Source: Aurantiacibacter luteus (GTDB taxonomy: Bacteria > Pseudomonadota > Alphaproteobacteria > Sphingomonadales > Sphingomonadaceae). From it: DNA of 64,000 bases. Under the pieces are notes generated by a model. That model saw only the letters and a list, made by a program, of their open reading frames with translations. It ran no database searches and was not told the origin of the DNA. The DNA is taken from the NCBI RefSeq assembly GCF_001010945.1, contig NZ_LBHB01000006.1:1-64000 (forward strand), read 5' to 3'. Each line of letters opens with the position of its first letter. Position 1 is the first letter of the stretch. Made by a program: the position numbers and the translations under genes. Positions 18,083 through 52,667 of this stretch are shown one piece after another.

Positions 18083-18823
18083 CTAACATTCTAGAACGTC
18101 ATCCCGGTGCCCGGAACAAGCATCACGTAACAATGCCAGCGCCTTCGCCTTCAACTGATGGACGCGCGGGATGCTGACTTCGAGGATCTCGGCAATCTCC
18201 GACAGGTTAAGTTCCTCTACGAAATAAAGCTGCAGCGTCAGCTTGAGACGGTCCGGCAAAACAGCGATCATCTCTGCCAGCCTGTCGGATTCCTCGATGG
18301 CGCTCAACACCTCGAAGGCATCGGGCGCCTCGTCGGCGAACGCGGGATCGGCGTCCGCGTAGCTCGCATCGAGGGACTCGATGCGCGTGGCGGGAATGTC
18401 CGCTTCGAGCAGGTCCCGGGCACTCATGCCGGTGGCCTCGGCCAGTTCCGCCATGGAAGGTGCGTGTCCCGTGCGCGCGATGAACTGCCGCCGTACCTCG
18501 CCGACCAGCGCTCTCTTGCGGGCCGTGACCCGGCCATCGGGAATGGTCTTGCGCAGCAGATCGTACATCGCTCCGCGCACGCGCATCTTGGCATAGGCCG
18601 CGAAACCGTCCTCTCCGGTTCCGGAATGCCGGCGCGCGCATTCGGTGAGCGCGAGCAGACCCGCCTGCATCAGGTCGTCCACCTCTATGCCCGGCCGTCC
18701 GCCGCCATGGATATGCCAGGCGAGTTTGCGCACCAGCGGAATGAAGGCGCGGACCCGCCGTTCGACGACGTCGGGGGCGGCATAGGCCTGCGCGGCCTGG
18801 AAGCGGGCGTGATCCTGCTTCAT
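18083..18823 (-). CDS. fliA: Flagellar sigma factor FliA (sigma-28)
   Basis: 246 residues. Region 2 is seen in AFIPLVRKLAWHIHGGGRPG and VDDLMQAGLLALTECARR, followed by FAAYAKMRVRGAMYDLLRK; region 3 in GHAPSMAELAEATGMSARDL; region 4, a helix-turn-helix, in ELNLSEIAEILEVSIPRVHQ. This is the layout of the FliA/WhiG group that directs RNA polymerase to late flagellar promoters. It is the last gene of a minus-strand operon, overlapping flhA by 4 bases (ATGA). Its anti-sigma factor FlgM is encoded at 22254-22541. The region 2-4 length and lack of region 1 agree with sigma-28. Confidence 0.9.
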   Translation of the reverse strand: MKQDHARFQAAQAYAAPDVVERRVRAFIPLVRKLAWHIHGGGRPGIEVDDLMQAGLLALTECARRHSGTGEDGFAAYAKMRVRGAMYDLLRKTIPDGRVTARKRALVGEVRRQFIARTGHAPSMAELAEATGMSARDLLEADIPATRIESLDASYADADPAFADEAPDAFEVLSAIEESDRLAEMIAVLPDRLKLTLQLYFVEELNLSEIAEILEVSIPRVHQLKAKALALLRDACSGHRDDVLEC

Positions 18824-20949
18824 GCGGCCACCGGTTCCGCCGCGGTGGCGGCATTGGCCAGCGCATCACCCGCGCCGCCGACGACGCTCAGCACGTCGAT
18901 CGGCTGGCTGGGCGGCAGTTCCGCCAGCGAGATGACGAGGCAGTCGGGCACCCGGCTGCGCAGCAGGCGCGCCAGCGCGCGGCGCGTAGGCGGCTGCACG
19001 ACCAGCGCGATGCCGCCCGCGCCCGACGTGCCGCGCTCCTGTGCCAGCGCGGCGATGCTCTCGCCGATCATGCGGGCGCATTCGGGCTCGATCAGCAGGT
19101 CCCCGCTCGCCGGATCACGCAGGCCGCCCAGGATGGCGCTTTCGAGATTCCCGTCGAGCGTCACCACCGGCAAGGTCGCTTCGGGCCCGCAGATCTGGCC
19201 GATCAGCCAGGCCCCCATGTCGGCGCGGACGTGGTCGATCAGGCGGTCGAAATCCTTGGTCTCCTGCAATCCGGTCGACAGGCTGGCGAGGATCGGCATG
19301 GGGTGGGCGAGCGTGATGCCGTCGGCCAGCAGCGCGCGCAGGATGCGGGTCAGCGCGGCAAGCGGCAGGGGATCGGGCGTGACCGCCTCCACGAGCCCGG
19401 GCGAGCGTTCCTTGACCCCTTCGAGCAGCGCTCGCGCCTCGTCCGGGCCGAACAGGCGCTCGGGCCGTCCCTCGAGCAGCTTGCTGAGATGGGTGGCGAT
19501 GACGGTGCCCGGATCGACGACGAGGAAGCCTTCGGCCACGGCATTGTCGCGCTCGGATGCAGGGATCCAAAGTGCCGGACACCCGAAGCTGGGGTCGCTG
19601 GTGGGGATGCCCTGCATGGCATGGTCCGCGCGCACCTCGCCCGTGTCGATCGCCAGCATCCGGTCGGCGCGGATCGCCCCTCCCCCCAGCATCGCGCCGC
19701 CCAGCACAATGCGATAGTTGCCTGCCGGCAGATCGAGACTGTCGCGAATGCGGAACTGCGGCACGATGAAGCCGAAGGTCTGGCTGAGTTGCTTGCGAAC
19801 GCCCGTAATGCGGGCGACCAGCGCGCTGTCCTGTGTCTTGTCGACCAGGTGGACGAGTCCGTAGCCAAGCTCCAGCGTCACCAGCGTGTGGTCGGACACA
19901 TCCTCGATGGCGATGGCGTCGGGGTTGGCGGCGGGCGCGACAGGCTCTGCCGGGGCTGGACGCTCCGCCTGTGCCTTCAGCTTGCGGTACAGCCAGAAAG
20001 CGATGGCCGCTGCCGGCAGGAACACCGATTGCGGCATGGCCGGGATCAGCCCGATGGCGAACAGCACGACGGCCACCGGCAGCCACGATTGCGGATTGCA
20101 GAACTGGCCGCCGATATGGCCCGCCAGATCGTCCTTGTCGCTCACCCGGGTGACGATCACCGCGGCGGCGATGGAGAGCAGCAGAGCGGGCACCTGCGCC
20201 ACTAGCGCGTCGCCCACGGCCAGCGTCACATAACGCTCCGCCGCCTCCGACGCGGTCAGGCCATGACTGATCATGCCGAGGCAGAAGCCGGCAATGATGT
20301 TGATCACCAGGATCAGCAGGGCGGCAATGGCATCGCCCTTCACGAACTTGCTGGCACCGTCCATCGCGCCGTAAAAATCCGCCTCGGTCGACACCTCGGC
20401 GCGGCGCGCGCGGGCCTCTTCCGAAGTCATAAGCCCTGCGGCGATATCGGCATCGATGGCCATCTGCTTGCCGGGCAGGGCATCCAGCGTGAAGCGCGCC
20501 GATACCTCGGACACGCGGCCCGCGCCCTTGGTGATGACGACCATGTTGATGATCAGCAGGATGATGAAGACGAACAGGCCGACGGCAAAGTCGCCGCCGA
20601 CGAGGAACGCGCCGAAGCTCTCGATGATCTGACCGGCTGCCGCCTCGCCCTGATGCCCGTTGACCAGTACGATGCGCGTGGAGGCCACGTTCAGTGCCAG
20701 GCGGAACAGGGTGGCGAACAGCAGGACGGAGGGGAACGAGGAGAAGTCCAGCGGGCGCGCGGCGTTCATCGCCGCCATCAGGATCGCCACCGAAAGCGCG
20801 ATGTTGAGGACGAAGAAAGCGTCCAGCATCATGGTGGGGATCGGCAGGACCATCAGCACGATCAGCGCCAGGATCCCGGTGGGCAACGCCAGCGTGGCCG
20901 GGGAGATGCCCTGCCTTGCGCGCGCCTGCGAAGTGGCGAGCGCGGTCAC
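18820..20949 (-). CDS. flhA: Flagellar export gate protein FlhA
   Basis: 709 residues, standard for FlhA. The N-terminal half carries about eight membrane segments (ATLALPTGILALIVLMVLPI; FFVLNIALSVAILMAAMNAA) with the conserved FHIPEP-type region represented by PSVLLFATLFRLALNVASTR. The cytoplasmic loop AGRVSEVSARFTLDALPGKQ with DADIAAGLMTSEEARARR is the family signature. The C-terminal half is the soluble export platform domain. It forms the nonameric gate of the flagellar type III secretion system. The GTG start overlaps the stop of the transglycosylase gene (GTGA). It belongs to the operon driven by the sigma-54 promoter at 21905-21920. Confidence 0.96.
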   Translation of the reverse strand: MTALATSQARARQGISPATLALPTGILALIVLMVLPIPTMMLDAFFVLNIALSVAILMAAMNAARPLDFSSFPSVLLFATLFRLALNVASTRIVLVNGHQGEAAAGQIIESFGAFLVGGDFAVGLFVFIILLIINMVVITKGAGRVSEVSARFTLDALPGKQMAIDADIAAGLMTSEEARARRAEVSTEADFYGAMDGASKFVKGDAIAALLILVINIIAGFCLGMISHGLTASEAAERYVTLAVGDALVAQVPALLLSIAAAVIVTRVSDKDDLAGHIGGQFCNPQSWLPVAVVLFAIGLIPAMPQSVFLPAAAIAFWLYRKLKAQAERPAPAEPVAPAANPDAIAIEDVSDHTLVTLELGYGLVHLVDKTQDSALVARITGVRKQLSQTFGFIVPQFRIRDSLDLPAGNYRIVLGGAMLGGGAIRADRMLAIDTGEVRADHAMQGIPTSDPSFGCPALWIPASERDNAVAEGFLVVDPGTVIATHLSKLLEGRPERLFGPDEARALLEGVKERSPGLVEAVTPDPLPLAALTRILRALLADGITLAHPMPILASLSTGLQETKDFDRLIDHVRADMGAWLIGQICGPEATLPVVTLDGNLESAILGGLRDPASGDLLIEPECARMIGESIAALAQERGTSGAGGIALVVQPPTRRALARLLRSRVPDCLVISLAELPPSQPIDVLSVVGGAGDALANAATAAEPVAA

Positions 20950-21848
20950 AGGTTCATCGCCTTGAGCCGGTCATAGGCGCCGCGCACATGCGCGGGCATG
21001 GGCCGGTCGCCGGTGGCAAAGCTGGCATGGAGGAGATCGGCCATCGACGGGCGCTGTTGCGGCGGTGCGCCCTGCGCGCCCGCCACCGCGCCGACACCCA
21101 ATCGGGCACCGCCCGTGCCGGTCATGCCGGCGGGCGAAGCCCAATCGCGGGCGGCGCTGGCGAAGCGGGCGGAGGGTGAGGAATCGAATGACGAAGGAAG
21201 GGCCCCGCCCGCCGCCATCGCGGTCTGCATCCTGCCGCGCATCAAGCCCATGACCTCGCCCAGCGACCTCGACGCGCCACCGGGGCCGTAGAAGATGCTG
21301 CGGTTTGCTGAGGCCGCCTGCGGCATGAGCGCCGCAGCCGCAGCGGTGGGGTCCTGCGCCAGCGCGGTCAGGAAGCGCCCCGCCCCCGCCGCGCCGAGGA
21401 AATGCGCCATGTAAAGCTCCGTCGCGTCCGGCTCGCGCCCGAGCACGTTCATCAGCTGAGCGCGGTTGTCCTGCGCCAGGGCTCCGGCCATCATGGCCGA
21501 GGCGTGGGGATCGAACTTCAGCGCCATGATGGCGGCGGCATTCGCCGGATCGCTGACAGCGCTGCGCCCGCCACGGGTCTCGATCGCCCCGGCAACCCCG
21601 GCATAGCCGAGACGTTCGCCGTGACGATCGAGGGTCGAGAGCCAGGTGCTGTCGATGAACTGGTAGAGCCCTTCCGCCGAGGAGGTACGGGCTCGCGCGG
21701 CGGGATCGAGCGCCGATTCCAGCCGCGCCTGCGCCAGCAGGTAATCGAAATCGGCCCCGGTCGCCTCTGCCGCGCGGGCGATGGCGCCGGCCACTTCGCC
21801 CCGCGGCGGGGCGGGCGCGCGAAGGGAGGGATGTCCCCCCGCTGCCAT
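20946..21848 (-). CDS. Flagellar SLT-type lytic transglycosylase
   Basis: 300 residues from the ATG giving MAAGGHPSLRAPAPP; an in-frame GTG five codons earlier is less likely. Residues about 20-165 are a lysozyme-like SLT domain: DYLLAQARLESALDPAARAR holds the catalytic Glu and SSAEGLYQFIDSTWL the usual GLYQF motif. The C-terminal half is low-complexity Ala/Gly/Pro. No N-terminal signal peptide is visible, so export through the flagellar apparatus, as for FlgJ, is likely. Because FlgJ in this cluster has only the rod-binding domain (29703-30026), this enzyme probably supplies the wall-cutting activity needed for rod passage. It is the first gene of the operon with flhA and fliA. Confidence 0.86.
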   Translation of the reverse strand: MAAGGHPSLRAPAPPRGEVAGAIARAAEATGADFDYLLAQARLESALDPAARARTSSAEGLYQFIDSTWLSTLDRHGERLGYAGVAGAIETRGGRSAVSDPANAAAIMALKFDPHASAMMAGALAQDNRAQLMNVLGREPDATELYMAHFLGAAGAGRFLTALAQDPTAAAAALMPQAASANRSIFYGPGGASRSLGEVMGLMRGRMQTAMAAGGALPSSFDSSPSARFASAARDWASPAGMTGTGGARLGVGAVAGAQGAPPQQRPSMADLLHASFATGDRPMPAHVRGAYDRLKAMNL

Positions 21849-21904
21849 AACTTGTGATCCCACTGTGCCGAACGCCTTTTTGAAATTGCTTTCGAGCGGC
21901 GTTC

Positions 21905-21927: not shown

Positions 21928-22257
21928 CTATCCCTGCATCAGCACCGGGCGCGGCCGGGCGTTGTAGGTGCCCGCGCGCTGGGTGAGTGCGTCCAGCCGC
22001 GCCGCGACGTTGGCCGAGACCAGGTTGCGGATACGGCGGTTAACCTCGTTGGCGTGCCGCGCCGACAGGAGCAGCGCCCGGCATTCCTCGTCGATCGACT
22101 GCGCGTCCTGCGCCTCCAGGGCAGCGCAAAGCGTATGCTTGCCCTTCCCCATCAACGTGAGCGCATCGATGTCCAGCCCGGCAAGCGCCTGCCGCTCGTC
22201 TTCAAGCACGGCAAGCATTTGCCGCAACTGGTCCTTCAGCATGGGGGCGGTCGTCAT
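21928..22257 (-). CDS. flgN: Flagellar chaperone FlgN
   Basis: 109 residues, predicted all-helical (KDQLRQMLAVLEDERQALAG, ARHANEVNRRIRNLVSANVA). Size, helical character and position directly behind flgM identify it as FlgN, the export chaperone of the hook-filament junction proteins FlgK and FlgL (30031-32285). FlgN sequences diverge strongly, so the call leans on context. The ATG overlaps the flgM stop by 4 bases. Confidence 0.78.
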   Translation of the reverse strand: MTTAPMLKDQLRQMLAVLEDERQALAGLDIDALTLMGKGKHTLCAALEAQDAQSIDEECRALLLSARHANEVNRRIRNLVSANVAARLDALTQRAGTYNARPRPVLMQG

Positions 22258-22541
22258 TCGGGGGAACTCAGCATGAGGCGCGCGGCGATCATCGCATCGG
22301 CAATGCGCGCAGGAAGGATAGGATAGGTGCCGTCGCGCAGCGCATTGCGGATTTCGCCGACGCGCTCGGCATCGATGGGTGCCGCATCGGCGCGCGCGCC
22401 CTGCCCGGTCTCGACCTCGACGCCGCCATCGATGCGGGCGGGAGCTTTCCCGACTGCTCCGGCAAGGGCGTTCGCACGCCCCTCGGCACGGGCACCCACG
22501 GCGGGACGCGATCCCGAAACTGGGCTGATTTCCGACGACAC
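22254..22541 (-). CDS. flgM: Anti-sigma-28 factor FlgM
   Basis: 95 residues from the GTG at 22541, which follows a strong AAAGGAG ribosome binding site 7 bases away; longer readings of this frame are antisense shadows. The N-terminal half is disordered (VSSEISPVSGSRPAVGARAE). The C-terminal sigma-binding part matches the FlgM pattern: ERVGEIRNALRDGTYPILPA then RIADAMIAARLMLSS. FlgM binds FliA until it is exported after hook completion, timing the late genes. It sits with flgN between flgA and the sigma-54-driven flhA operon. Confidence 0.87.
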   Translation of the reverse strand: MSSEISPVSGSRPAVGARAEGRANALAGAVGKAPARIDGGVEVETGQGARADAAPIDAERVGEIRNALRDGTYPILPARIADAMIAARLMLSSPE

Positions 22542-22615: not shown

Positions 22616-23140
22616 TCAGGAAAGCGGCAGCACGACCACGCCGGGCCGCTCCACACGGGCGCGCAGAACGTCGCGGCGGCCGGCGATGCGCACGCGCACC
22701 CATTCGCCCGCCGCACCCGAATCCATCGCCTCGCCAACCTGGCTCACGGTAAAGCCGGGGCCGGCCACCGCCACGGAGACGCTGTCGCCTCGCGAGACCA
22801 GTGGCGCTTCGCTCGCGACCTGCTCCCGCTGCGCCTCGCGCACAGGCACGAAGATGCGCCAGCCGCCGCGGTCGGGGCACTCGACCACCACGTTGGCGCG
22901 CGCCGATCCGTGCCACGACAGTGCCAGCGGCGTGTTGCATCGGGCGAGACGCAGGCGGCGGTCGGTCAGCTGCCGCGCCCCGCCCTCGGCACCGATGGGG
23001 AGGCCCGTGAACTGGGCGACCGCAAGATCGATATCCGCCGGATCGGCGAACTGTGCCTGCGCCATTGCGGGGGAAGGAGCGAGCAGGAAAAGTCCGGCAG
23101 CGAGCGCGGCCGGCAGGAGGGTCTTAGGGCAAGGGGGCAT
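22616..23140 (-). CDS. flgA: Flagellar P-ring chaperone FlgA
   Basis: 174 residues. Signal peptide MPPCPKTLLPAALAAGLFLL, cleaved near AMAQA, so periplasmic. The SAF-like/ChapFlgA domain is seen in APLVSRGDSVSVAVAGPGFT, VSQVGEAMDSGAAGEWVRVR and DVLRARVERPGVVVLP, the usual C-terminal signature. It assists assembly of the FlgI P ring. Longer upstream readings are a shadow of the neighbouring gene, whose end this gene overlaps by 17 bases, indicating one transcript with the MotA/MotB-like pair. Confidence 0.9.
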   Translation of the reverse strand: MPPCPKTLLPAALAAGLFLLAPSPAMAQAQFADPADIDLAVAQFTGLPIGAEGGARQLTDRRLRLARCNTPLALSWHGSARANVVVECPDRGGWRIFVPVREAQREQVASEAPLVSRGDSVSVAVAGPGFTVSQVGEAMDSGAAGEWVRVRIAGRRDVLRARVERPGVVVLPLS

Positions 23141-23585
23141 CGGCGTTTCCCTGACAGGTGAGATCGGGTGTGACCGTCGGGCCCTGCAAGGCCTGTGCCA
23201 TCCCTCCACCTTTGGTGAATGAAACGCTGGCGAAAAGCTCGTCCGTCGCCCCCTGCTCGACAACGGTTCGCGGCAGGAATCCCGCCGCGCGCGCCTGGTC
23301 CAGCAACGCAAGCGCGCGCTGCGCGGCGGAATCCGGATCGTCACCCTCGTACCGCGCGGTGATCGTTACCGTTTCACGCGGGTCGCCGGCGCGCGCGGCG
23401 AGCCAACCAGCCAAGCTCTTCCCCGATGCGGGCGTCCAGACGTCGGTTGCCTCTGCGAAGAGCTCGTGAGGAGGATTCGCACCGCTATCGTCTCCCGTGG
23501 CGAATGCGGAGGCGATGACGATGAAGAGAATGAGAGACAGGTCGGCCAGGATTACCTGCCAACCGTGACCGGCACGCAAGGTCAC
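23124..23585 (-). CDS. MotB/ExbD-like single-span protein without OmpA domain
   Basis: 153 residues from the GTG at 23585, which overlaps the stop of the MotA-like gene (GTGA); farther upstream the frame is a shadow. One N-terminal membrane segment (WQVILADLSLILFIVIASAF) starts with an Asp in the position of the proton-binding Asp of MotB/ExbD (LADLSLILF). The remaining 120 periplasmic residues (RYEGDDPDSAAQRALALLDQ) do not show the OmpA peptidoglycan-binding motif that fixes MotB to the wall. Position after a MotA-like gene and before flgA suggests a stator-like proton channel subunit of the flagellar regulon. Function is inferred. Confidence 0.62.
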   Translation of the reverse strand: MTLRAGHGWQVILADLSLILFIVIASAFATGDDSGANPPHELFAEATDVWTPASGKSLAGWLAARAGDPRETVTITARYEGDDPDSAAQRALALLDQARAAGFLPRTVVEQGATDELFASVSFTKGGGMAQALQGPTVTPDLTCQGNADAPLP

Positions 23586-24247
23586 GCGGCGGCTCCGGCC
23601 AACACGGCAGGCCCGTCGGGCACGACGCCCGCAATCTGTTGCGAAAGCCAGTCGAAGAGGTGCTGGCGCTCTTCCTCCTCCTGTTCGGCGCGGCGTTCGA
23701 TCAGACGGGCTAGAGGGTAAAACACAAAATGCGCGCACAGGAGCCCATAAAGCGTCGTAAGCACCGCGCTCGCCACAGTCGCTGCCATGTCGCCCGAGGC
23801 CAGCCCGTCCGCCGGCAGCTGGCTGAGCGCGAGCAGCGTCCCGGCAAGTCCGAACACCGGCGCCAGATCGCCGGCCTGCGCCAGCGTTTCCTCGGCCACC
23901 TGCCGGCGGCGGCGGCGCATCTGCGCGTGGCGCTGGTGCGTGGCTTCCAGCGCGGCGATGGAACGGTGCTTAATGAGCGCGGCTGTCGCTTCGTCGATCT
24001 CGGCATCCTCGCTCGTCACGGGGTGCGCGCGCAGCACGCCGTCGCTGCGTATCTCATCGACCTGGGCTGCTACCTTGGCGCGGGCATGTTCGTAGGTGAA
24101 GCGCGGGCGCAGCAGTTGCGTGGCGGCACCTGCCGCGGCCTGCCAGCCGGTGCGCCCGCAGCGCAGCAGGGTGGCGAGCAGCGTGCCCCCCAGCACGACG
24201 GCGAGGCTGGCAGGGTCCAGCAGCGCGGAAAACGTGAATGCGTCCAT
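23582..24247 (-). CDS. MotA/TolQ/ExbB-family channel protein (second stator-like gene)
   Basis: 221 residues from the ATG giving MDAFTFSALLDPASLAVVLG, preceded by GAGGA. Membrane segments: about residues 12-28, then after a cytoplasmic domain (residues 45-125, rich in Arg and Glu) two more at about 127-145 (APVFGLAGTLLALSQLPADG) and 155-180 (ASAVLTTLYGLLCAHFVFYP). The motif AVLTTLYGLL with the following FYPLA is characteristic of MotA/ExbB channel proteins. It is distinct from the full-length motA at 32312. It heads a minus-strand operon with the MotB-like gene and flgA, divergent from flgB. Confidence 0.75.
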   Translation of the reverse strand: MDAFTFSALLDPASLAVVLGGTLLATLLRCGRTGWQAAAGAATQLLRPRFTYEHARAKVAAQVDEIRSDGVLRAHPVTSEDAEIDEATAALIKHRSIAALEATHQRHAQMRRRRRQVAEETLAQAGDLAPVFGLAGTLLALSQLPADGLASGDMAATVASAVLTTLYGLLCAHFVFYPLARLIERRAEQEEEERQHLFDWLSQQIAGVVPDGPAVLAGAAA

Positions 24248-24326
24248 GGCAAAAGGGTCCTCTTCGAACCCCGAGAACGACCCCGCCCGCAAGCCCTTAA
24301 GCGGATCGGCGCAACTTTGCCGCAAC

Positions 24327-24342
24327 CGGCAATCGCTTGCCG
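24327..24342. promoter_or_regulatory. Inverted repeat upstream of flgB, candidate activator site
   Basis: CGGCAA, TCGC, TTGCCG: a perfect 6-base inverted repeat about 46 bases before the -24 element of the flgB sigma-54 promoter, in the divergent region with the MotA-like operon. Placement suits binding of the sigma-54 activator encoded at 35579-36856, but this is inference. Confidence 0.35.
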
Positions 24343-24387: not shown

Positions 24388-24403
24388 TGGCACGCTGCTT
24401 GCT
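24388..24403 (+). promoter_or_regulatory. Sigma-54 promoter for the flgB operon
   Basis: TGGCACG, four bases, TTGCT: exact sigma-54 -24/-12 consensus with the correct spacing, 58 bases before the flgB ATG. Expected to drive the long rod and hook operon. Confidence 0.86.
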
Positions 24404-24460: not shown

Positions 24461-24808
24461 ATGAGCGAAGGATTGTTCGGCATACACGGGGCGGCGCTGG
24501 AACTGCGCTCGCAGCGCATGGCCATGCTGACCGCGAACATCGCCAATGCCGCCACCCCCGGCTACAAGGCGCGCGACATCGATTTCGATGCGGCCCTGCG
24601 CGCCCGGATGACGGGCAGCGATGCGGGATCGGCGGCGGATGGCGCGGTGCGATACCGCGTGCCCGTCATGCCCTCGCTCGACGGCAACACCGTGGAACTG
24701 GCCAACGAGCAGATGGCTTTTGCCGAAAATGCCGTCGCCTACACCGCGACGCTGTCGTTCCTTCAGGGCCGGGTCGAGACCGTGACCCGCGCGATCCGGG
24801 GCGAATGA
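24461..24808 (+). CDS. flgB: Flagellar rod protein FlgB
   Basis: 115 residues. The N-terminal rod motif is present (LRSQRMAMLTANIANAATPG followed by YKARDIDFD), as is the C-terminal helix (TATLSFLQGRVETVTRAIRG). FlgB is the proximal rod subunit at the MS ring. It is first in the flgBCDEFGHIJKL series and sits 58 bases behind a sigma-54 promoter. Length is slightly short of the usual 130-140 residues. Confidence 0.93.
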   Translation: MSEGLFGIHGAALELRSQRMAMLTANIANAATPGYKARDIDFDAALRARMTGSDAGSAADGAVRYRVPVMPSLDGNTVELANEQMAFAENAVAYTATLSFLQGRVETVTRAIRGE

Positions 24809-32311: not shown

Positions 32312-33175
32312 ATGCTTCCAGCCATCGGGATAATCATCCTCCTAGTCATGGTTTTCGGCGGTTTCGCTCTGACGGGCGGCGCGCTCGGCCCGGTGATGCA
32401 CGCGGTGCCGCATGAAATGCTGATCATCGGCGGTGCAGCTGCCGGTGCGCTTGTAGCGGGAAACTCGAAGCACGAACTGAAGGCGCTGGGCAAGGGACTG
32501 GTCAAGGTCTTCAAGGGGCCGGGCTATTCGCGCAAGGACCATGTCGATGCGATCGCCCTTACCGGACGCCTGATGCGCCTGCTGAAAACCGAGGGTGCCG
32601 TCGCGCTGGAAGAACATGTCGAGAAGCCCGGCGAATCGGCGATCTTCGCCGAGTATCCCCGCATCCTGACCGATCATGCGCTGTGCGGCCTCATCTGCGA
32701 CACGCTGATGCTGATGGTGGTCTCCTCCGGCACGCTGGAGGTGCACGCGGTGGAAGAAGTGATGGACAATGCCATCCGCTCCCATTTTCACGAGATGGAC
32801 GAGCCCGCCCATGCGCTGCAGCAGTTGGCCGACGCGCTGCCCGCGCTGGGGATCGTTGCCGCCGTGCTGGGCGTGGTCAAGACCATGGGTTCCATCGATG
32901 AGCCGCCATCGGTGCTGGGCGGCATGATCGGCTCCGCGCTGGTCGGCACCTTCCTGGGCGTGCTGCTGGCATATGGCATCGTGGGCCCGCTCGCGAGCCG
33001 GCTCAAGCAGATCAACGCGCACGACCAACAGATCTTCCACTCCGTCAAGCAGGTCATCATCGCCTCGCTGCACGGTTGGCCCCACGCGCTGGCGGTGGAG
33101 TCGGCGCGGTCCGGGCTGCCGCATTCGTTGCGCCCGCCGCTGCTCGAACTGCTTGATACGCTGAAGGGCCGCTAG
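32312..33175 (+). CDS. motA: Flagellar stator protein MotA
   Basis: 287 residues, full-length MotA. Four membrane segments (AIGIIILLVMVFGGFALTGG; EMLIIGGAAAGALVAGNS; LPALGIVAAVLGVVKTMGSI; SALVGTFLGVLLAYGIVGPL) with the conserved Pro at the start of the third. The cytoplasmic loop between segments two and three contains the charged stretch that contacts FliG. With MotB it makes the proton channel that turns the rotor. Spaced 26 bases from flgL and directly followed by motB. Confidence 0.95.
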   Translation: MLPAIGIIILLVMVFGGFALTGGALGPVMHAVPHEMLIIGGAAAGALVAGNSKHELKALGKGLVKVFKGPGYSRKDHVDAIALTGRLMRLLKTEGAVALEEHVEKPGESAIFAEYPRILTDHALCGLICDTLMLMVVSSGTLEVHAVEEVMDNAIRSHFHEMDEPAHALQQLADALPALGIVAAVLGVVKTMGSIDEPPSVLGGMIGSALVGTFLGVLLAYGIVGPLASRLKQINAHDQQIFHSVKQVIIASLHGWPHALAVESARSGLPHSLRPPLLELLDTLKGR

Positions 33176-33176
33176 G

Positions 33177-34082
33177 ATGGCGAGCGCCGCCCCACAGGCG
33201 GGCGAAGTTGCCTATATCGGCCCCGAGCGGCGCGGTCCCGATGATCTCGCGCCCGAACCGCAGCGCCCGCTGATCGTCAAGAAAGTCATCGTCCAGGCCG
33301 GCGATGGTCATCACGGCGGCGCCTGGAAGGTCGCCTACGCCGATTTCGTCACCGCGATGATGGCCTTTTTCCTGCTCCTGTGGCTGCTGGGCGCGACCAC
33401 CGAGGAGCAGCGCAAGGGTCTTGCCGACTATTTCACCCCGACGCTCGTCAAGCTGCGAGAGGAGAGCGCGGGGGCCGACGGCCTGCTGGGCGGCAGTTCC
33501 ATTACAGACGCGGATGCCTATCCCCATGCCGCCGGGCAGACCGGCACGCAGGCGCTGACGATCCCGCGCGATTCCCGCGGCGGCCCGGTCGAGGGCGGCG
33601 GGGCGCAGGAACCGGCGGGCATCCGGGCACGCGCATTGCAGAAGGAGATCGAGGAGCGCCTCGCCGCCGACGCGGCGCTGCGTGAACTGGTAAGGCAGGT
33701 GCGGGTCGTTGCGACACCCGAGGGCGTCCGCATAGACATGGTCGACGATGCCGATTTCTCCATGTTCGCGCTCGGCACCACGGTGCTGGTTCCGCGCGCG
33801 GAGGAGCTGTTCGCCACGATCGGCGCCTCGATCGCCGACTTGCCTGCTCCTATCATCGTGCGCGGTCACACCGATGCGCTCCCATGGCGGCCGGGCGTGG
33901 CGACCAACAACTGGTCCTTGTCCGCCGGTCGTGCCGAAGCCACGCGCCAGTCGCTGCTGCGCAGCGGCATCGCGCAAGGCCGCTTCGCCAGGATCGAGGG
34001 CGTGGCCGACCGCGAGTTGCTGATTGCCGACGATCCCGCGGACCCGCGCAACCGGCGCATCTCCATTCTGCTGCTGGACTAA
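33177..34082 (+). CDS. motB: Flagellar stator protein MotB
   Basis: 301 residues. The single membrane segment has the proton-binding Asp in its usual context (WKVAYADFVTAMMAFFLLLW). The C-terminal OmpA-like peptidoglycan-binding domain is clear: IIVRGHTDALPWRPG, NNWSLSAGRAEATRQSLLRS, and DPRNRRISILLL. It anchors the stator to the wall. The ATG begins one base after the motA stop. Confidence 0.95.
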   Translation: MASAAPQAGEVAYIGPERRGPDDLAPEPQRPLIVKKVIVQAGDGHHGGAWKVAYADFVTAMMAFFLLLWLLGATTEEQRKGLADYFTPTLVKLREESAGADGLLGGSSITDADAYPHAAGQTGTQALTIPRDSRGGPVEGGGAQEPAGIRARALQKEIEERLAADAALRELVRQVRVVATPEGVRIDMVDDADFSMFALGTTVLVPRAEELFATIGASIADLPAPIIVRGHTDALPWRPGVATNNWSLSAGRAEATRQSLLRSGIAQGRFARIEGVADRELLIADDPADPRNRRISILLLD

Positions 34083-35494: not shown

Positions 35495-35578
35495 TGCGTG
35501 GCCTTAAATTACCCCGGCTTAGAACGTTGGGCCGCATTGCCGGCTCAAGGGCAGACAGGGTTAACAGGGGCACGGTTC

Positions 35579-36852
<1,274 letters not shown>

Positions 36853-36856
<4 letters not shown>

Positions 36857-42263: not shown

Positions 42264-43610
42264 TTGCTGCCGATCACTGCCAGTTTGCCGAAAATGCCGT
42301 CCCCCCTTGAAAGCGGGGCTACCGCAACGCTCGGCGAAGGGATCGCCGAACGCTTCGAAGCGCTGTTCGCGGCGTTTACCGATACCGTGCCAGACGAAAT
42401 TCCCGCTCCCGAGGCCGTCGTCGATGGTACCGACGGCAGCGTCTTGCCGGTCGAGGGCGGCAATAGTTTGCCGCCGGCCGCGCTGGTCATTCCGCAGCCC
42501 ACTCCCGGGGTGTCCCTCCTGCCTGTCGTGTCGCCCATGCCGGCACAGGAGAAGCCTTCGAACCCGCCGTCCGGCCAGCCACGGTTGGTAAGCCTGGATG
42601 GCGACGCCCGGCCTGGCCGCCAATTCCCGGCACCTCTTTCCGCACAAGCTGCTGAAACCTTGCGCGAAGTCCCCACCGCCGCACTCGTCGCAGGCGCGGT
42701 GGCGCCCTCGCCCGCACCGCATCAGGGCTCGCCATCCGGCAAGGCGCCCGCGGCTGTCGTCCTGCCGAACCAATGGGACATCGCCGATCTGCAAATCGTA
42801 ACGACCAGTCCTGCGCGGCTGCCGGTGGCCGTTCAGCCTGCTGTCCAGGCCATCGCCGCCCCAATCGTGGCTCTGGCAGGCACGGCCTCATCCTCAAGCC
42901 ATCAACCCGCCTTGCCAGAGGAAGAGCCGGACGCCGCATCGTCGCGCGAAGTCGGCGAATTGCCGGAGTTCAAGGCGAGGCCCACCCGCCTCGCATCACC
43001 TGTTGCCGCGCTTGCAGGTTCGACCGCAGCGCCGCCCCTCGCCGCCATCGAAGCAGTCCAGCAAACTGGCGCGCCGCAACCCACCACCGCTGCCCAGCCG
43101 TTGCAGAACCAACTCTCTCAACCCGCTGCAACGGCGGGCCAGGCGCGGCCGCTCACCCTTACCGACCTTGTCGACAGCATCGCCCAGGCGCGCGAGGCGG
43201 CCCTCCCCCACCGGGCCGAACTGTCGGTGCGCCATTCCGATTTCGGCCGGGTCAGCATTCGCATGGACGCAGCCGGAGCGGCCGCTTCACTGGGCTTCAC
43301 GCTGTCGAGCGCGGATGCCGGCTTCTCTTCCGCGGCACAGGCGGCGCTTGCCGATCGCGGCGCGGCCGAGCGTGTCGTGGTGGCGGCGCAGGGTGACCAG
43401 ACCTCGCGCCAGGCCGAGCCGAACGCGTCCGGCCAGGGCGGCAGCAACGGCGCCTCGAGCCAGCAGGCGACTAGCGGCGGAACCGGCCATCCGGCCCACC
43501 GCTCGCCCGCGCCCGCCCACGACCCGGCGCGCGATGCCGATGTTTCGCGCGCCGACGAGAATGTCGTCTCGTCGAACGATCGCCGCGCCCGCGGCGGCAT
43601 CTTCGCCTGA
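42264..43610 (+). CDS. fliK: Hook-length control protein FliK
   Basis: 448 residues from a TTG start that follows GAGGGA at good spacing; the next in-frame ATG is ten codons later. The first 300 residues are Pro/Ala-rich and unstructured, as in the molecular ruler part of FliK. The C-terminal domain is short: AELSVRHSDFGRVSIRMDAA and LGFTLSSADAGFSSAAQAAL resemble FliK-C. It measures hook length and switches export specificity through FlhB. It lies between fliJ and fliL as usual. Confidence 0.82.
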   Translation: MLPITASLPKMPSPLESGATATLGEGIAERFEALFAAFTDTVPDEIPAPEAVVDGTDGSVLPVEGGNSLPPAALVIPQPTPGVSLLPVVSPMPAQEKPSNPPSGQPRLVSLDGDARPGRQFPAPLSAQAAETLREVPTAALVAGAVAPSPAPHQGSPSGKAPAAVVLPNQWDIADLQIVTTSPARLPVAVQPAVQAIAAPIVALAGTASSSSHQPALPEEEPDAASSREVGELPEFKARPTRLASPVAALAGSTAAPPLAAIEAVQQTGAPQPTTAAQPLQNQLSQPAATAGQARPLTLTDLVDSIAQAREAALPHRAELSVRHSDFGRVSIRMDAAGAAASLGFTLSSADAGFSSAAQAALADRGAAERVVVAAQGDQTSRQAEPNASGQGGSNGASSQQATSGGTGHPAHRSPAPAHDPARDADVSRADENVVSSNDRRARGGIFA

Positions 43611-51188: not shown

Positions 51189-52667
51189 TCAGAGCACGCC
51201 CTTAATCCAGAAATGACCCATCTTCTTCAGCACGGGATGATGTCCGCGGACGCCGTCGAAAAAGCCTTCGTCCCACTGCGTCAGGATGAGGTCGGGGCGA
51301 TTGCAAGCTACGATGGCGAACGTCCAGAACCTCGCCAACAAGTTGATTTGAGGATCGGTCGCCTGGATATCCTGCCCCTTTGGAGCGGACGTTTCCAATG
51401 CCCGATGAATAGCCTTCCTGGCGACGGCAAGCGCCTCCCGCGGGTTGAGAGCACTTGTATACAGAAAACCTGAGGGCGCATCAGAAGGGTCGTCCCATTG
51501 AGCGAGCTTCATTGGGTCGAAATCATCGATCTGCGCGTACTTGGCCAGGCCCACCATGGTGGAAACCGGCGGCAGAAACACCTCGTCGTAAGACGGAAGC
51601 TCATCGCTTTCTTTCCACTGAGGCAGGACTTCGTAGCCGGTCTTCCACTGGGGGAGATCATACCAGAATATGGCAGGGACGCGCCGCCGCATGTCCGCTT
51701 CATCAGGCTCCATCGCGTCGGCACCAAAACCGGCAATTGTTGCCGACAAACTCATACTCAAAGGTGCATTGGTGGGTTCTTCAGTTCTCGTTTTGTCGAG
51801 CTCCGATGATGGCATTTCCTGCCCACCTTCGGCATCGTCGCTGCGGACCTCCTTCCACTGCGCAGGTGAATTCGCCACCCTTGCGAAGCCGCTCGACAGA
51901 TCCATTTCGCCCCTCAAGGGCACTTCTTCAATAGACCCTGCCTTATCATCGGCGTGGCGATATCCTTTTGCCGGTCCGAGTGACTGGACCTCAGTCGCGG
52001 TTCCTTGTCTCAGCGCCGCGAGAACCTCCTCTCGACCTTTGATTTCCTTTCCACGCGATGCACACCACTCTAGGAAATCGTCCCCGGTAGGCGCGTCCTC
52101 CTGCCCTGTCTTTGACCGCAAAAGCCCATGAAATTCCAGCACGCGAGCAGTTACGGCAGGACCCAAATCGAGTGCCTGAAAGGCTGCGTTTTGCCGCTCG
52201 GTGAGCCCCGCGAAATGCACCAGCAACTCGTTCTCGATCAGCGTCAGACGTGCGATCTTGGCCTCCTGTTCGGCCCGGATCCTGGCGACCAGGAGCAGCG
52301 CTCGGCGGGCGTCGTTACGGTCTTCGATGATCGCCGCCATGGCCTTGGAACCGACCCGCATGGTGTCGCGCAAAGCGGTGCGTTCGGGCACATAGTGGCG
52401 AGCAGGCAGGAATGGCCGATATTGGGGCGCAAAGCGGACATCAGCGAGGCAAAGTGATGGAGATACTCCAATGATCTGAGTGCCATCTTTATCGTCTATG
52501 GGGCACCACTTCCTCTCAGAGTTGGGCAACGTGCTTCTCAAACGGTTTTCTCCCGCGGCCTTGTGGGCCAAGGTGTGATCCTTTCCATAGATCGTGTTTC
52601 GCTTACGCCTCGCACGCACACGCTTCATGAAGACCTGTTGTCTGCTGGCGCTCGGGTTGGTTGCCAT
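51189..52667 (-). CDS. Hypothetical accessory protein (492 residues)
   Basis: Not recognised. The longest reading gives 492 residues, but the first 100 (MATNPSASRQQVFMKRVRAR) have no ribosome binding site and look irregular; a start at the ATG of MRVGSKAMAAIIEDRNDARR near residue 103 is a good alternative. The rest has a helical, charged N-terminal part (LLLVARIRAEQEAKIARLTL), an acidic middle (PSSELDKTRTEEPTN), a short tandem motif (LPQWKTGYE, LPQWKESDE), and a Trp-rich C-terminal domain (LLARFWTFAIVACNRPDLIL, TQWDEGFFDGVRGHHPVL). No membrane segments. It is visibly more AT-rich than its surroundings and sits next to a truncated pobA, so it is probably a recent arrival. Confidence 0.55.
   Translation of the reverse strand: MATNPSASRQQVFMKRVRARRKRNTIYGKDHTLAHKAAGENRLRSTLPNSERKWCPIDDKDGTQIIGVSPSLCLADVRFAPQYRPFLPARHYVPERTALRDTMRVGSKAMAAIIEDRNDARRALLLVARIRAEQEAKIARLTLIENELLVHFAGLTERQNAAFQALDLGPAVTARVLEFHGLLRSKTGQEDAPTGDDFLEWCASRGKEIKGREEVLAALRQGTATEVQSLGPAKGYRHADDKAGSIEEVPLRGEMDLSSGFARVANSPAQWKEVRSDDAEGGQEMPSSELDKTRTEEPTNAPLSMSLSATIAGFGADAMEPDEADMRRRVPAIFWYDLPQWKTGYEVLPQWKESDELPSYDEVFLPPVSTMVGLAKYAQIDDFDPMKLAQWDDPSDAPSGFLYTSALNPREALAVARKAIHRALETSAPKGQDIQATDPQINLLARFWTFAIVACNRPDLILTQWDEGFFDGVRGHHPVLKKMGHFWIKGVL

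Follow-up and report, generated by a model that had tools for sequence, protein, structure and literature searches.

A flagellar stator-derived gene pair of reduced architecture between flgB and flgA in Sphingomonadaceae

Known flagellar stators require their B subunit to be held still. A survey described them as structurally uniform, combining a four-helix "square fold" membrane domain, a plug and linker, and an OmpA anchor (PMC12505986), and dual stators are common (PMC6375700, PMC11633141). MotCD of Pseudomonas and MotPS of Bacillus, each present alongside another stator, possess TM1, an OmpA domain and a known torque function. Outside flagella, the SiiAB pair of the Salmonella SPI4 type 1 secretion system is a stator-like pair that does not serve torque generation. 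Its SiiA subunit is a MotB-like partner whose domain is described as peptidoglycan-binding. Our searches of the literature library returned no paper on the gene pair presented here. In Zymomonas, motA1/motB1 are listed in a flgL-side position (PMC9797736), a naming that may point to an annotated second pair in that organism.

We analysed a stretch of 64,000 nucleotides from Aurantiacibacter luteus (hereafter, the window), for which a preliminary description had reported a second MotA/MotB-like pair without a wall anchor in the flgA operon. The coordinates, the lengths of 221 and 153 residues and the GTGA coupling of the two genes, here termed A and B, were confirmed on the sequence, as was the presence of a normal motAB elsewhere (Table 1), in which motA matches both MotA_N and TIGR03818 and the two genes are intact. 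The start of flgA (23140) lies inside the 3' end of B, with an overlap of 17 nt. The genome encodes four MotA_ExbB proteins, namely A, the canonical MotA (32312) and two more elsewhere.

Table 1. Positions of the A-B pair, its regulatory elements and related flagellar genes in the window
Feature	Position	Strand	Details
A subunit, PomA/MotA homologue	23582..24247	(-)	221 aa, three predicted TM helices, MotA TM1 absent
B subunit	23124..23585	(-)	153 aa, GTG start, one TM (7-29), Asp15
B subunit, periplasmic part	residues 46-123		small OmpA-like fold (predicted) after short linker
GTGA stop/start overlap coupling A to B	23582..23585	(-)	read directly from sequence
flgA, P-ring chaperone, downstream of B	22616..23140	(-)	ChapFlgA 1.7e-10
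flgB, divergent neighbour of A	24461..24808	(+)	
flgM, anti-sigma28	22254..22541	(-)	FlgM_jcvi 9.5e-9, 35.9 bits, under the curated cut-off of 40.75
fliA, sigma28	18083..18823	(-)	FliA_WhiG 6e-43, under that model's curated cut-off
Canonical motA and motB, E. coli MotA type	32312..34082	(+)	TIGR03818 2.6e-100; MotB_plug, OmpA
Sigma28-like promoter of the pair, TAAGGGCTTGCGGGCGGGGTCGTTCT	24274..24299	(-)	motif learnt from fliC promoters
Sigma54 promoter of flgB, directed away from the pair	24388..24402	(+)	kept in 45/51 loci
Sigma54 promoter site of flgA, in the 3' end of B	23186..23200	(-)	like site present in 57/74 loci, 0/76 in the control
Conserved palindrome between flgB and A, CGGCAATCGCTTGCCG	24327..24342	(.)	48/50 loci; likely activator site

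The larger subunit had been called a MotA/ExbB-type channel protein, a label that holds for its MotA_ExbB profile match (1.3e-11) and fails on the ExbB side, since PomA is the best match by both sequence and fold. The PomA profile scored 1.1e-15, and a profile search of the PDB matched PomA at 6.7e-22. By sequence and profile, the best PDB matches were PomA and other flagellar MotA proteins, with the alignment beginning at PomA residue 27-29; these searches returned no match to ExbB and an insignificant one to TolQ (E 0.2). The AlphaFold model of A (pLDDT 90.5) aligned to PomA with a TM-score of 0.81 and a Z of 18, versus a TM-score of about 0.46 and a Z of 9-11 for ExbB/TolQ. Its cytoplasmic part superposes on PomA, with torque-interface helices partly merged in the model, and its predicted fold is that of PomA, not the condensed one of ExbB/TolQ. 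An ExbB/TolQ origin of A was thereby ruled out by sequence and fold comparison.

MotA_N was not found in A, no hydrophobic helix precedes TM2, and TM1 is also absent from the same-genus loci. An overlooked TM1 resulting from a wrong start of A was rejected, as the upstream in-frame stretch to 24874 shows no evident hydrophobic helix and the relatives agree. Outside the Sphingomonadaceae, homologues possess TM1 in 26/27 class-level loci, the last one (L219) being unreadable, and homologues from 11 loci in other families of the same order also carry it. Given the PomA-like sequence and fold, the missing MotA_N and the TM1 of these outside-family homologues, A is, as read from sequence and model, a flagellar-type (PomA) stator subunit that has lost TM1.

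In Vibrio, the Na+ site is composed of PomA T158 and T186 with PomB D24 (PMC6677748). A keeps PomA T158, T185, T186, P151, G189 and P199 (pore threonines T137/T164/T165 in A), and the channel residues are invariant in 47-57 orthologues. With all three PomA threonines kept, the ion used by the pair is possibly Na+. At the rotor contacts, MotA R90/E98 (PomA R88/E96) correspond to R67/H75 in the window A, and this pair of residues is not conserved together, E96 occurring in 4/15 core members and R88 in 5/29 divergent ones.

The smaller subunit was correctly described as single-span with an Asp at the membrane start. W9 and D15 are invariant in 57 orthologues, and the prediction for B is a membrane-spanning protein bearing a MotB-type Asp, not a soluble or unrelated one. 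In its model, the TM helix (7-29) is followed by about 15 unstructured residues and then by a beta-alpha-beta-alpha-beta-beta domain (46-123), most residues of which exceed a pLDDT of 90. Sequence comparison of B with Pfam, NCBIfam and the PDB yielded nothing convincing, the PDB matches staying at chance level. VIA-align placed OmpA-like domains at the top (an LPHT-ring chain, Helicobacter pylori MotB, SiiA and OmpA), with middling Z values of about 7, little above those of unrelated rows. Because Foldseek alone ranked HypE/FtsZ pieces first, the OmpA-like reading of B leans on VIA-align, topology and orthologues, and the same-locus orthologues, rather than the fold search, are the stronger support for an OmpA-like origin. 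Same-locus partners in other Sphingomonadaceae measure 145-218 aa, several of them score MotB_plug and OmpA in Pfam, and in NCBIfam the B orthologues have MotD as best match, with MotD/MotS top-scoring. MotB_plug scored in divergent orthologues only, and not in the window B. Among 28 divergent B proteins, the peptidoglycan-site Arg is kept in all 28 and the corresponding Asp aligns in 6; the window B does not present a GHTD-type peptidoglycan site. The earlier claim that B lacks the OmpA wall anchor therefore stands as regards the missing peptidoglycan-site residues and long plug/linker, and must be amended as regards the domain itself, since a reduced OmpA-like fold is predicted and orthologues score OmpA. 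By sequence and model, B is a MotB derivative with a channel Asp and a predicted shrunken OmpA-like domain near the membrane, and in the window lineage it is the eroded end of a graded series beginning with OmpA-bearing partners.

Compared with PomAB (Vibrio) and the TGI4 stators, the pair shares the fold and sequence of A, the pore threonines and prolines, the membrane Asp of B and the A-then-B order. It differs by the absence of TM1, plug, long linker and peptidoglycan-site Asp, by FliG contacts that are not kept, and by its position between flgB and flgA in a genome with a full motAB. Measured against the features of the structural survey (PMC12505986), it fails the four-helix fold, the plug/linker and the rotor contacts, whereas with MotAB/PomAB it shares the sequence and fold clade of A, the channel Asp of B and the pore residues of A. 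The pair thus belongs with flagellar stators by descent, but is not an ordinary stator by published defining features. Like MotCD and MotPS, it is a TGI4-like pair additional to another stator, and one might regard it as a true second stator set (MotCD/MotPS/PomAB-like) acting on the same rotor and anchored through divergent residues. The PomA/MotC type of A, the MotD/MotS scores of the B orthologues, the frequency of dual stators, and the Arg kept in all divergent B proteins, some with an Asp near the peptidoglycan site, would agree with such a set. Such a set is improbable, given that the window lineage has lost TM1, plug and long linker, that so few divergent B proteins have the Asp aligned, and that the rotor contact charges differ. 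Since the window B lacks both a plug and a GHTD-type site and has a short linker, the pair is unlikely to transfer torque in the usual stator manner.

In the predicted models, a three-TM A and a short-linker B compose an ExbBD/TolQR-type topology, including the small periplasmic domain. The pair could therefore be an ExbBD/TolQR/SiiAB-like energiser, in which ion flow would drive pulling or gating work directed not at the C-ring but at a flagellar partner, whether late export substrates, filament secretion or a component of the outer membrane or of a ring. The SiiA domain (6qvp) is among the nearest folds to B, and the degraded FliG contact pair of A points in the same direction. However, the cytoplasmic part of A is PomA-like and not condensed, and a casual look at the cluster noticed no TonB/TolA-like partner gene. 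The pair also differs from ExbBD/TolQR in its flagellar sequence and genomic setting, and from SiiAB, which is not flagellar and gave no sequence match. We consider this energiser unlikely, and rank it below an accessory unit of the assembled motor, a reading towards which the regulation of the pair also points.

A sigma28-like motif was derived from nine regions upstream of fliC. It precedes A in 26/49 loci, compared with 8/2000 random stretches, and in this 49-locus comparison no instance faced flgB or preceded flgA. A somewhat relaxed version, run over 3.2 kb in 66 loci, clustered only before A and flgM; in the window, the flgM site lies at 22596-22571. Ahead of most divergent A genes no such motif was detected, and the sigma28-like promoter of A is accordingly defined, by sequence, for the Novosphingobium/Erythrobacter-type lineage only. 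No sigma54 site toward A was found across 51 loci, the sigma54 sites being those of flgB and flgA. With the sigma28-like site before A and these separate sigma54 sites, the pair reads as a set of late genes whose transcription can be separated from that of flgA, and appears to be expressed late, in the promoter class of fliC and flgM. In E. coli, motAB also belongs to the sigma28 (late) class. The original placement "in the flgA operon" is therefore right in its adjacency to and overlap with flgA, and incomplete in that separate promoter sites serve the two, a sigma28-like one for A and a sigma54 one for flgA.

The palindrome between flgB and A (CGGCAA-N(3-4)-TTGCCG) occurs, with close half-matches, 10 times in the window versus 0.7 expected, several times near sigma54 sites. 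Sites are located at 22179-22224, 24327-24342, 42434-42473 and 51731-51745, and the FlbD-type activator whose gene is at 35498-36856 probably binds them.

These promoters bear on the roles initially put forward for the pair, namely energising export, helping P-ring assembly or modulating the motor. The late sigma28-like promoter common to A, fliC and flgM weakens the first two. A helper of P-ring/FlgA-dependent assembly or of early export would agree with the conserved adjacency to flgA, but flgA has a conserved sigma54 site within B whereas A carries the late sigma28-like one, relatives retain the same flgB-flgA cluster without the pair, and we regard this role as very improbable. Set against the separate sigma54 site of flgA, the sigma28-like promoter of A speaks for a role at the finished motor rather than in P-ring assembly. 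Modulation of an assembled motor, or work at it, fits the late-class promoter better, the functional role itself being inferred.

The gene order was followed in 80 loci from named records, all from Sphingomonadaceae or unplaced alphaproteobacterial assemblies, and in 34 loci from the family. In these, A adjoins flgB or flgC, and flgA lies downstream wherever the contig reaches; the order flgB<>A-B-flgA holds in 19/19 same-genus positives and, with the same proviso on contig reach, in the 80 fetched loci. Outside the Sphingomonadaceae, in the 27 class-level loci and the 11 from other families of the order, the PomA-like A adjoins FlbD-type regulators or motB and in no case flgA. Within the sampling made, the pair is confined to Sphingomonadaceae. 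Over 250 family genomes, A matched in 113, an upper bound since a few weak matches (e.g. G112, G116) may be ordinary PomA, FlhA in 175, and both in 112. The sole A-positive genome without flhA is 77% complete. The pair thus tracks flagella rather than being equally frequent in genomes without them, which supports the stator-like channel of the flagellar regulon first proposed. Canonical MotA occurs in 162/250 genomes, both with and without the pair, and other flagellated Sphingomonadaceae have flgB and flgA with no pair between them. On the FlhA tree, the distribution fits one gain and about three losses. Since the monophyly of all pair A subunits has weak tree support (22, unstarred), the case for a single origin is made by synteny and by the FlhA tree. 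The pair was probably gained once inside the family and lost a few times, and it is inherited together with the flagellar cluster.

In eight close pairs of loci, dN/dS amounts to 0.09-0.31 for A and 0.13-0.43 for B, which indicates that A-B is under purifying selection and, together with the conserved gene order, that the pair is not due to chance. These values bear on whether the pair could be the decaying remnant of a former second stator that persists by hitch-hiking, as the erosion of B past Pfam recognition and one genome (L124) carrying A without B on a long branch might suggest. Against these ratios, the invariant channel residues and the conserved promoter, such a relic is hardly credible. 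L124 (G078) and L189 (G164), which shares the same genus code and has no pair, likely represent loss of the pair in progress.

G076 and one other genus, both early-branching and without the pair in any member, have flgP/flgT-like ring genes, which occupy the flgB-flgA slot in the three loci read, an occupancy that speaks for the energiser reading. The slot holds flgP (LPP20) and flgT-like H-ring genes at 4279-5735 in L165, 6970-8444 in L190 and 12526-14024 in L158; FlgT_N was found in just 5/250 family genomes.

Based on the late-class promoter, the PomA-type cytoplasmic fold and the strict flagellar linkage, we tentatively favour, as somewhat short of probable, a slimmed-down rotary unit of stator descent, driven by ions and probably of A5B2 composition, that would serve the assembled flagellar motor as an accessory. 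Sigma28 would switch on the pair late, together with the filament genes, and ions would pass between A and Asp15 of B, turning A around B. Since B has lost the plug, the linker and the peptidoglycan site, it must either have another anchor or serve another purpose, and the anchor may be another envelope or flagellar-ring protein instead of peptidoglycan. The unit could then join, exchange with or modulate the canonical MotAB stators via a FliG-facing surface with altered contacts. The broken rotor contacts, the improbability of ordinary torque transfer by the window B, the relatives flagellated without the pair and the sigma28 motif not found at most divergent A genes count against such an accessory motor. 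A more radical proposal, possible although rather doubtful, is that within one family and one flagellar regulon a stator has turned into a rotary motor of ExbB topology, off the cell wall and acting on something else than FliG, be it a component of a ring, of export or of the outer membrane, with intermediates still seen. The pair departs from several uniform stator features yet stays tied to flagella, and the graded series from OmpA-bearing to eroded partners in one family provides a natural test of the parts needed for ion flow, torque and anchoring, which also bears on how stators and ExbB/TolQ-type motors interconvert.

Two further observations concern the surrounding flagellar genes. In G096 (L181, 1-6000), flgJKL-motAB is gone and replaced by repeated transposase-bearing segments, while the pair is retained; this genome with the pair and no motAB was dropped as functional evidence, flgJKL-motAB having been lost around transposase copies. 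In the window, a protein with a weak SLT transglycosylase match is encoded at 20946-21863, between flgN and flhA, and is kept across the flagellar clusters of the family; it is perhaps a candidate flagellar muramidase, the one missing from the short flgJ.
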